A DNA stretch of 51,849 bases from an uncultured Planctomyces sp. (GTDB taxonomy: Bacteria > Planctomycetota > Planctomycetia > Planctomycetales > Planctomycetaceae): the NCBI GenBank assembly GCA_937904325.1, contig CALGTK010000199.1:1-51849 (forward strand). Reading direction: 5' to 3'. Position numbers and translations under genes: made by a program. The notes under the pieces were generated by a model. The model was not told the DNA's origin, ran no database searches, and saw nothing but the letters and a program-made list of their open reading frames with translations. Numbering within the stretch: the first letter of the stretch is position 1; each line of letters begins with the position of its first letter. This document shows, one piece after another, positions 3,137 to 51,849 of the stretch.

Positions 3137-4540
3137 TTACCCAAACAGTTCCATGACTGGTTTGCCGGTTGTCAGAGAGGCTGAAATGCCGCTGGCGTCT
3201 GTTGGATCGTTGATCGGAATGTCGAGGGCGTGATAGATGGTCGCGGCGAGTTCTTCGGGACGAACTGGCTTGTCGGTGACATACTCGCCTCGCTTGTTGG
3301 TCTTGCCATACACCTTCCCGCCAGCGATGCCCGCTCCGGCGATGATCGACGAGAAGCACTTTGGCCAGTGCTGCCGTCCTGGTGGATCCTGTTTCAGCAC
3401 GAACGGTGTGCGACCGAATTCGCCTGTGACGACGACAAGGGTGTCGTCCAGCATGCCACGCTCGGTGAGGTCAGAAAACAATCCGGCCAAAGCCTGATCC
3501 AGACGAGGCAAACAGAATCCCATGCCGTAGGAGCCGTTGCCGAAGGCGTTGCCCATACCCATGTTTCCGCCGTGCATGTCCCAACTGCTGCTCGGCGGAC
3601 CTTTCTTGTCGTGCTCTGCCTGGCCGGTCCAGCCGTTGACGGTGACAAAGCGGACTCCTGACTCGACCATGCGCCGCGCGAGAAGAAGATTCTGCCCCAG
3701 CGGATGCATCCCATAGCGTTCCCGCGTTTTGACCGGTTCCTGATTTAACTTAAACGCCTGCCGGCCTTCCTGGCGTGTCATGGCGTCGTACGTCTTCTCA
3801 CGCAGGTCAGACCAGTCTTTGACCTGACTGTCCTTGTCCAGTCTGGCCGATTCAAGGCTGCTAAGCAGCGACTTACGCTGACCGAATCGTTGTTTGTCGT
3901 ACGGATTGTAGAGTTCAGGCGGCTCAAAGTTGTCCATAGCCGGGTGATTGGTTGCCGAGCCGACAAACATCGGCGCATAAGCCGATCCAAGGTAGCCACC
4001 GATACCGATGTTGGGCGCGCAGAAGACGGGTGGACCTACACATTTGATGAGCCAGGCATTCGACACGAAGTTGCGCGTGCTGGGTTTGTGTTTGGCAACG
4101 AACGAGCCGAGGTACGGATGCTCGTCCGGCATGCCCTGTTGCACTCGCTTCTCAGACTGACCACTGAGTAGATTGTGCATCGCGTCAAAGTGATTACTGA
4201 TTGATCCCGGATGCGACATCGAGTTAATGAGGGTGAAGTGGTCCGTCAGCTTCGCCAGTTCGGTGTGCATCTCATTGATGCGCATCCCGGGTACTTTGGT
4301 GGCAATCGGCTCGTAAGGGCCGCGATAGTCCAGCGGTGCGTCTGGTTTCATGTCCCAGGTGTCGACGTGACTTGGTCCTCCGCAAAGCAGAACAAAGATG
4401 CAGGACTTGTTTGAAGCGACAGCTTTGCCGTCTTCGTCGACCTTGTCGCTGCCCATCACGACGCCAGGCATGCCGAGGCTCATTGTTCCCAGACCGCTTG
4501 CGATGAGGGCTTGTCGCCGGTTCATTTGAAGTTCGTTCAT
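3137..4540 (-). CDS. DUF1501 family protein, stand-alone copy
   Basis: The 467-residue protein has a Tat-like N-terminus (NRRQAL, then a Gly/Ser-rich hydrophobic run to about residue 30). It carries the DUF1501 signatures CGGPSHVDTWDMKP (53-66) and TGEFGRTP (372-379). DUF1501 is a distant alkaline-phosphatase/sulfatase-fold family that is very common in planctomycetes and usually sits directly after a PSCyt1/DUF1549/DUF1553 gene. This copy has no such partner and instead lies divergent from a sulfatase (249 bp gap) and convergent with the phosphoesterase. No biochemical activity is established for the family as far as I know. GGAA lies 7 nt before the ATG at 4540. Confidence 0.88.
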   Translation of the reverse strand: MNELQMNRRQALIASGLGTMSLGMPGVVMGSDKVDEDGKAVASNKSCIFVLLCGGPSHVDTWDMKPDAPLDYRGPYEPIATKVPGMRINEMHTELAKLTDHFTLINSMSHPGSISNHFDAMHNLLSGQSEKRVQQGMPDEHPYLGSFVAKHKPSTRNFVSNAWLIKCVGPPVFCAPNIGIGGYLGSAYAPMFVGSATNHPAMDNFEPPELYNPYDKQRFGQRKSLLSSLESARLDKDSQVKDWSDLREKTYDAMTRQEGRQAFKLNQEPVKTRERYGMHPLGQNLLLARRMVESGVRFVTVNGWTGQAEHDKKGPPSSSWDMHGGNMGMGNAFGNGSYGMGFCLPRLDQALAGLFSDLTERGMLDDTLVVVTGEFGRTPFVLKQDPPGRQHWPKCFSSIIAGAGIAGGKVYGKTNKRGEYVTDKPVRPEELAATIYHALDIPINDPTDASGISASLTTGKPVMELFG

Positions 4541-50843: not shown

Positions 50844-50917
50844 CGGGACGTGGCTCAGCTTGGTAGAGCGCTGCACTGGGGGTGCAGAGGTCGCAGGTTC
50901 AAATCCTGTCGTCCCGA
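50844..50917 (+). tRNA. tRNA-Pro, anticodon GGG
   Basis: The 74-nt cloverleaf has acceptor arms CGGGACG (50844-50850) and CGTCCCG (50910-50916). The D arm is GCTC...GAGC, the anticodon stem CTGCA/TGCAG has loop CTGGGGG (anticodon GGG after U33), and the T arm is CAGG-TTCAAAT-CCTG. The discriminator is A at 50917. CCA is not encoded. Its 3' half is overlapped by the end of the integrase reading frame on the other strand, and it serves as the attachment site of the element. Confidence 0.95.
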
Positions 50918-51849
50918 TTCGGAAGGCTTATCAGAATTACCCTCTGATAAGCCTTTTTTCGTAGGTTTCGTGGGGTTTCTGTGACTATCCCTGCTCGTAT
51001 TCCGTGACGTGGCTTCAGCCGTCAAAATGACAGGAAGTGACTCAGATAGCCCTGGAAGGGCACCAGTAAGGGGAAGCACAGGGGGAAGCGCGCCAGCGGT
51101 ACCTGTTGCACGCATTGCTTCGGATGGCTTTTCCGGTGGCCGATCAGGTGAAAATCTCGGAAGCTGATCCAACGCGCCGCTGACGTTCAACAACTTCGCA
51201 TCCGTGTAGGTTTCCATTGTCAGTCGGATGTCCGAGTGCCTCAGGATTTCCTGGGCGGTTCGCGGTGCGACACCGGACTTGTTGAGCATCGTAGCCAGCG
51301 TCATTCGCATGCCATGCAAGTCAACTGTTCTGTTCCGATGATCTTTCTTTGATATACCTGCCACCGCCAGGTCGCTGTTGAATGCTCGCAACAGACTTGT
51401 TGGGACGAAGAACAGCGGTTGTTGCATGAACGCTTCAGGTTCGCCGGTGAATTTTTCTCGTTTGTCTTCAATCCATTTTCGCAACTCAACAACCAGGTCT
51501 GCCCGAAGTGGGACCTCTTTGCCTTTGCCATTCTTTTCATCGCCTGCTTCCAGAACCACGAACGGTGTCGGAGCATCGAGTTCGAGCCAGCCAATCCTGA
51601 GTGATGCAAGTTCGCCACACCGTAGTCCAGTGAGCACCAGCATACGGTGGATCAAGGCACGCTCACGGCCTCGCTGGTCGAGTTTCGCGGCAAACTGCGG
51701 ATTGCGAGCCAGTCGCTGACGTGCATTGGCAACCGTGGCTTCCAGTGTGTCGTACGTGATTGGTGCTTTCTTCCAGTTTGACCGTTTCGAGCCGTCGTTG
51801 GTTTCAGGGCGGACAGTCACGCGTCCGTACTCTGCCAGCGGTCTCAAGC
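50855..51849 (-). CDS. Tyrosine recombinase (integrase), 5' end outside the window
   Basis: The frame is open to the right edge, so the N-terminal DNA-binding domain is missing. The visible catalytic domain has all expected residues in the visible numbering: R76 (TGLRCGEL), Lys at about 108-110 (GKGKEVPL), H178-xx-R181 (LHGMRMTLATML), H204 (ILRHSDI) and nucleophile Y214 (METYTD). A Pro/Ser-rich tail of more than 100 residues follows the tyrosine. Its last part is encoded by the tRNA terminator and by antisense tRNA-Pro sequence (RQDLNLRPL), with the stop at 50855-50857 inside the tRNA. It should integrate and excise the element at this tRNA. The functional protein may end earlier in the excised form, where a different sequence follows. 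Confidence 0.92.
   Translation of the reverse strand, partial: LRPLAEYGRVTVRPETNDGSKRSNWKKAPITYDTLEATVANARQRLARNPQFAAKLDQRGRERALIHRMLVLTGLRCGELASLRIGWLELDAPTPFVVLEAGDEKNGKGKEVPLRADLVVELRKWIEDKREKFTGEPEAFMQQPLFFVPTSLLRAFNSDLAVAGISKKDHRNRTVDLHGMRMTLATMLNKSGVAPRTAQEILRHSDIRLTMETYTDAKLLNVSGALDQLPRFSPDRPPEKPSEAMRATGTAGALPPVLPLTGALPGLSESLPVILTAEATSRNTSRDSHRNPTKPTKKGLSEGNSDKPSESGRQDLNLRPLHPQCSALPS
50923..50955 (+). terminator. Rho-independent terminator of tRNA-Pro
   Basis: A perfect 13-bp stem, AAGGCTTATCAGA (50923-50935) with TCTGATAAGCCTT (50943-50955), a 7-nt loop and a run of six T at 50954-50959, five nt after the tRNA. On the minus strand it lies inside the integrase reading frame. Confidence 0.9.

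Follow-up and report, generated by a model that had tools for sequence, protein, structure and literature searches.

A tyrosine integrase gene at the right-hand end of the window (the whole stretch of 51,849 nucleotides that was analysed, which is one complete contig of a draft genome) very likely spans the attachment site of its own mobile element, such that integration exchanges a conserved C-terminal tail for an end encoded by the target tRNA. The locus in the window is best explained as one end, attL, of a mobile element that has integrated in tRNA-Pro(GGG).

The window integrase ends inside its target tRNA

The features of the locus are collected in Table 1. On the minus strand, a frame of 330 codons runs without a stop from the contig end to position 50855, within the tRNA gene. 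The frame is matched by Pfam family PF00589 Phage_integrase (E 1.9e-16, residues 63-217) and by phrog_216 integrase (E 8.6e-22), and its translation contains the complete catalytic set, namely R (TGLRCGEL), H..R (HGMR), H (RHSD) and Y (METYTD). The stop codon at 50855-50857 is the reverse complement of tRNA nucleotides 12-14 (TCA), which lie in the D arm. Between the catalytic domain and the tRNA, the integrase frame also reads through a hairpin. Folding of positions 50912-50965 as RNA gave a stem of 15 bp at 50921-50957, with an energy of -22.5 kcal/mol and a z of -5.2, and a T run follows it; a consensus promoter and terminator scan of this region returned no match and missed this hairpin. 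The sequence-only reading of this DNA had stated that the integrase frame crosses the tRNA terminator and ends inside tRNA-Pro at 50855, and tRNA detection by ARAGORN, the open reading frame, PF00589 and the RNA fold all agree with it. The predicted attachment core is translated by the integrase frame as ..GRQDLNLRPLHPQC... By comparison with its relatives, the window integrase would be the truncated, integrated-state form of the enzyme, and the tRNA-Pro(GGG) in this state would consist of a chromosomal 5' part and an element-derived 3' part. The codons at 50855-50868 are predicted to be swapped for an element-encoded tail upon excision.

Table 1. Positions of the integrase, its tRNA target and related features in the window.
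Feature	Position	Strand	Basis
tRNA-Pro, anticodon GGG, integration target	50844-50917	+	ARAGORN
Tyrosine integrase, 330 residues readable, 5' end lost at contig end	50855-51849	-	ORF, PF00589, phrog_216
Catalytic domain of the integrase	51197-51661	-	Pfam match, residues 63-217
Intrinsic terminator hairpin of the tRNA, antisense in the integrase C-terminus as KKGLSEGNSDKP	50921-50957	+	RNA fold
Predicted attachment core, tRNA nt 26-74	50869-50917	.	Homology to G011:C228 attR
Last integrase codons and stop, probably from the chromosomal tRNA 5' part	50855-50868	-	Inferred from G003:C7 and other complete elements

The window element is an insertion whose far end lies off the contig

The contig stops within the integrase, at 51849, so that what remains of the element, including its far attachment site, lies outside the window. 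The second copy of the tRNA 3' end that the sequence-only reading would have placed to the right was not recovered: we found no second copy of the tRNA-Pro(GGG) 3' half elsewhere in the assembly at up to 3 mismatches, the other matches being the tRNA-Pro CGG and TGG genes or their fragment. In G011, for the same isoacceptor, the attL integrase lies on one contig and the attR fragment with its tail on another (C228). This attR fragment comprises tRNA nucleotides 26-74 at 100% identity, and the phase of its tail is the phase of the window integrase. The window genome holds a second such integrase at tRNA-Pro(TGG) (C440), with a far-end tRNA fragment on C65 that is in frame with the C440 integrase and open up to the contig end. 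The window element probably carries the same tail as its relatives. Three tails in the window genome (C322, C438 and C236) were rejected as its far end because they are eroded and have no adjoining tRNA fragment, and fragments in G001:C85 and G004:C352 were set aside as decayed relics.

The insertion is not fixed, because identical tRNA-Pro(GGG) genes occur in the same genus without a convergent integrase of this kind (G002:C195 and G003:C24). These genes rule out that the integrase-tRNA pair is a fixed chromosomal arrangement shared by all relatives, the outcome against which the earlier reading had set its proposal of a mobile element. Downstream of tRNA-Pro(GGG) in G004, also of the same genus, the sequence is of a different kind.

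Integrase genes run into antisense tRNA in related genomes

We searched 59 related genomes for integrases, of which many were found, and inspected the C-termini in those that were fetched. The integrase frame enters or passes through an antisense tRNA in 37 of 46 distinct pairs, and since so many related pairs share it, the overlap of integrase and tRNA exceeds chance. Peptides encoded by antisense tRNA recur as integrase C-termini, namely GLEPSTSALRT for tRNA-Ala, RRDLNPQPPDRQSG for tRNA-Asp and RQDLNLRPPDPQSG for tRNA-Pro. Of these 37 pairs, 27 have a significant hairpin within the 60 nt beyond the tRNA, and a T run accompanies 25 of the hairpins. As judged from these sequences, the element supplies the tRNA with its 3' half and with its terminator, the two lying antisense within the integrase gene. 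The design in which the integrase reaches across the core is not universal, because the integrases of two elements in G045 stop 230-280 bp short of the core and have no tail.

Joining the element ends extends the integrase into a tail

Elements with both ends present allowed the excised arrangement to be joined in silico. The direct repeats bounding complete elements mostly begin in the anticodon arm (tRNA nucleotides 24-33) and reach the tRNA 3' end, and a displaced tRNA 3' fragment is present at the far end of 12 related elements. In all 12 elements having both ends and an intact integrase, the joined ends extend the integrase in frame into a tail of 60-105 residues that is encoded at the opposite end of the element. 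These elements measure 5.8-36 kb and target tRNAs that include Ala, Pro, Phe, Leu, Arg, Ser and Lys. All three codon phases are used among them, and the probability of 12 of 12 being in phase by frame chance alone is (1/3)^12, or ~2e-6. In one further element (G047:C1) the tail is out of phase; its integrase is broken, with the upstream part missing in that frame.

The nearest of these cases is G003:C7 in the same genus, whose integrase is 65% identical to that of the window and in which the 3' part of tRNA-Ala from nucleotide 28, plus 43 nt, is repeated 28.1 kb away. On a single contig of G006 (C1), the tRNA-Pro 3' end occurs three times and forms a tandem array. When these two loci were joined across the repeat, the integrase frames extended into the homologous tails ENDFAAAMQMIAGLPLSDEEKAEAIRRLLAGRDA and AGDFAAALAMIAALPLSDVERANAVRRLLSGWK. 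Elements at tRNA-Phe, at two tRNA-Leu and at tRNA-Arg gave tails of the form DLARVIKAWPFLPEHVRAAIATLVE after joining, the G023 version being looser, and a tRNA-Ser element of G006 also joined. Because the joined ends give an in-frame tail in these relatives, integration shortens the integrase and excision brings back its full length. The earlier proposal had placed the core in the tRNA and had excision alter the integrase 3' end. That the 3' end would change with excision is strongly supported by the relatives, 12 of 12 of which joined; for the window itself the far end is missing. A conserved protein tail encoded at the far end had not been anticipated in that proposal.

As for cargo, the G003:C7 element (L045-L046) encodes a MbnB/TglH/ChrH RiPP enzyme, an NMT1-like binding protein, a glycosyltransferase, an amine oxidase, a spermidine synthase and an IS110 transposase. 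Among ten proteins scanned in this element there were no phage or conjugation genes.

The tail is a conserved protein domain read in the integrase frame

The tails nearly always end in one motif, which takes the form L..VV.AWPTLPE.IR.AI.ALV or FAAAM.MIA.LPLSD.EKAEAIRRLL, and with a threshold of E 0.01 this motif was found in 94 of the 248 genomes searched from the class. For a blind test, we took ten tails in long contigs and, with no integrase known beforehand, fetched 40 kb on the element side. Five of the ten had a matching tRNA-region repeat, and all five shared their frame with an integrase-sized frame entering the core (these five are counted among the 12 above); for the other five, no partner tRNA repeat was detected within 40 kb. 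Among 34 tails with an upstream antisense tRNA fragment, the fragment is open in the tail frame in 33, and in the other two frames in 6 and 3. The same frame test on a phylum-wide sample gave 17 of 22 open in the tail frame, and 4 and 1 in the others. Substitutions among tails are distributed over the three codon positions as 384/213/638, an excess at position 3. No significant tail match was obtained in 50,697 phage records, and no tail-bearing close relative was found in the IMG/VR, phage and plasmid collections. One IMG/VR element (L185) targets the 5' part of a tRNA, and joining its ends adds just a few residues.

The overlap might simply be passive: antisense tRNA contains few stops, so that the integrase frame meets none ahead of the tRNA, and its C-terminus would have no role in either state. 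Constraint on the tRNA sequence would by itself make an antisense peptide such as that of tRNA-Ala appear every time, and the G045 integrases do stop before the core. We nevertheless consider this explanation unlikely, since the far end holds a conserved in-frame domain, this tail is conserved across many tRNA types and several classes, and its substitutions are in excess at third positions.

The remaining explanations concern the far end itself, and we regard both as very improbable. If the tail were a separate small gene at attR, for instance a directionality factor, that starts past the core and appears fused only when the ends are joined, then its position beside the att site would be natural for an excisionase, and in integrated genomes the tail is indeed found away from the integrase, within a short ORF of ~80-130 codons. 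Against a separate gene, there is no in-frame ATG, GTG or TTG from the core to the motif in G003 and G243, the tail frame is the integrase frame in every one of the 12 elements, and contiguous integrase-tail genes were found. Conservation of the far end could alternatively reside in the DNA, as arm-type integrase binding sites with no protein made. Most of the complete elements examined, those of tail-less G045 included, do have direct repeats with a period of ~12 bp on the tail side, at a distance of ~43-94 nt from the core (e.g. GGTTGCACTCAT GGTTGCAC; noted at the far ends of the G050, G243, G119, G263, G045 and G006 elements and in L219), and they may be arm-type integrase sites. The WP.LP motif, however, lies beyond the repeats and is missing in G045, and the differences among tails sit at codon position 3. 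Protein-tail and arm-site functions can coexist at the far end.

Some genomes contain the integrase and tail as one unbroken gene

A single frame of 656 codons in G202:C66 contains the integrase, antisense tRNA-Asp nucleotides 28-75 and the tail. The contig is 13.2 kb long, contains no intact tRNA, and flanks the fused gene on both sides with genes for a terminase small subunit, a DNA methylase, a ResIII-type protein and a primase-like protein. This arrangement fits an excised form, and the junction of a tandem array would give the same picture. The circularity of L219 is unproven because a terminal repeat is absent. The same integrase-tRNA-tail fusion is present in G235:C122 and in G167:C30, the latter cut by the contig end.

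A model for the exchange of the integrase C-terminus

In the arrangement that we propose, the integrase frame of the excised circle would read across the tRNA-derived core into the conserved tail at the far end of the element, and the full-length enzyme would be active there. Integration would sever the gene at the core, leaving the catalytic part beside the tRNA and the tail at the opposite end of the element. The integrated integrase would then end in a few residues encoded by the tRNA, with its stop provided by the D arm, and this truncated form would be the integrated-state enzyme, with a differing activity. Both protein forms would presumably be made. The form of the enzyme would depend on the state of the element, integrated or free, and loss of the tail may alter activity and so help to stabilise the integrated state. 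A broader reading, which we put forward as a serious but tentative possibility, is that of a phylum-wide switch operated by recombination, in which the tail would be needed for integration and lost through it, and in tandem arrays a newcomer would re-tail an older integrase and could reactivate it. On this switch reading, integration would remove the tail that it needs, and directionality would therefore be built into the arrangement of the DNA.

Comparison with known systems

The closest known case is phage Mx8 of Myxococcus xanthus. For Mx8 (and Mx9), attP is part of the int coding sequence, and int acquires a new 3' end when the phage integrates (PMC6070905, citing Tojo 1996, Magrini 1999), and the altered Mx8 integrase was reported to be active still, with changed specificity (PMC6070905). 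In the Mx8 record, we found that int contains a stretch resembling antisense tRNA-Asp (nt 51-75, 88%), after which comes a long tail. The planctomycete elements resemble Mx8 in that the int coding sequence lies across the att core and the C-terminus is exchanged, here as seen in relatives joined in silico. They differ in that the Mx8 Int C-terminus has neither a WP.LP nor an LPLSD motif, the tails being unrelated in sequence, and in that the core mostly begins in the anticodon arm. Whereas Mx8 is a single myxophage, the planctomycete elements are many and diverse, use many tRNA types and share a tail domain across the phylum.

The 'suicidal' archaeal integrases of the SSV type have a gene that is split at att upon integration, with Int(N) on one side and the catalytic Int(C) on the other, both of which are regarded as inactive; one review termed self-disrupting recombinases exclusively archaeal (PMC8371274). 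The planctomycete integrase gene is likewise split at att by integration, but its catalytic residues are all on one side, upstream of the core, and the C-terminal tail alone is lost. The Islander work noted that some integrases (Mx8, SSV) reach across attP, and described neither a conserved tail nor a planctomycete family (PMC4383910). The related elements with both ends present are like Islander islands in their tRNA target, the displaced 3' fragment at the far end and the tyrosine integrase; set against those islands, the window has the integrase present beside an element-restored tRNA. In the integration-dependent immunity of mycobacteriophage BPs, the protein made from a gene that spans attP differs between the integrated and the free state. 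The split gene of BPs is the repressor, unlike that of the planctomycete elements, which is the integrase.

We found no description of such integrases from planctomycetes in the searchable literature. The attP-spanning kind of integrase is already known, while the phylum-wide family, the tail domain and the large number of targets seem to be new to that literature. A bacterial self-severing integrase was previously known from myxophages, and in the present data this design is common throughout a bacterial phylum. In integrated genomes its conserved tail domain is a short orphan ORF away from the integrase, and the antisense-tRNA C-termini could be mistaken for annotation errors. The tails flag where planctomycete islands that are still unmapped have their far ends. 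The arrangement also provides a simple model, open to testing, of how an element stays integrated, with dozens of natural replicates on offer.

Tandem arrays and other arrangements

In tandem arrays, an older integrase apparently adjoins the tail of a newcomer (G004:C212, G001:C155 and G004:C118), which would re-tail the older integrase. C-termini of old integrases were also seen outside attR, in frame with a newer tail (L117, L127, L129 and L046, at ~3300-3466), and their arrangement suggests serial accretion with re-tailing. In a mirrored layout, observed for tRNA-Gly, Met, Leu and Cys, an intact tRNA is followed on its sense strand by the tail frame (L091, L111, L212, L295, L304 and L308). 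After the same tRNA att sites there is also a second kind of sequence, in which an integrase-like gene starts just past the tRNA 3' end and reads away from it (L288 in G000:C65, from ~134; L258 in G004:C355; L059-L061 in G006:C1, near 4233848). In G006 this second kind is apparently in one tandem array with the convergent type. Draft contigs often end in or beside such integrases, as the window does at 51849 and as do C440, C268 and C231 of G000 and many others, perhaps as a result of repeats or of mixed excised and integrated states.
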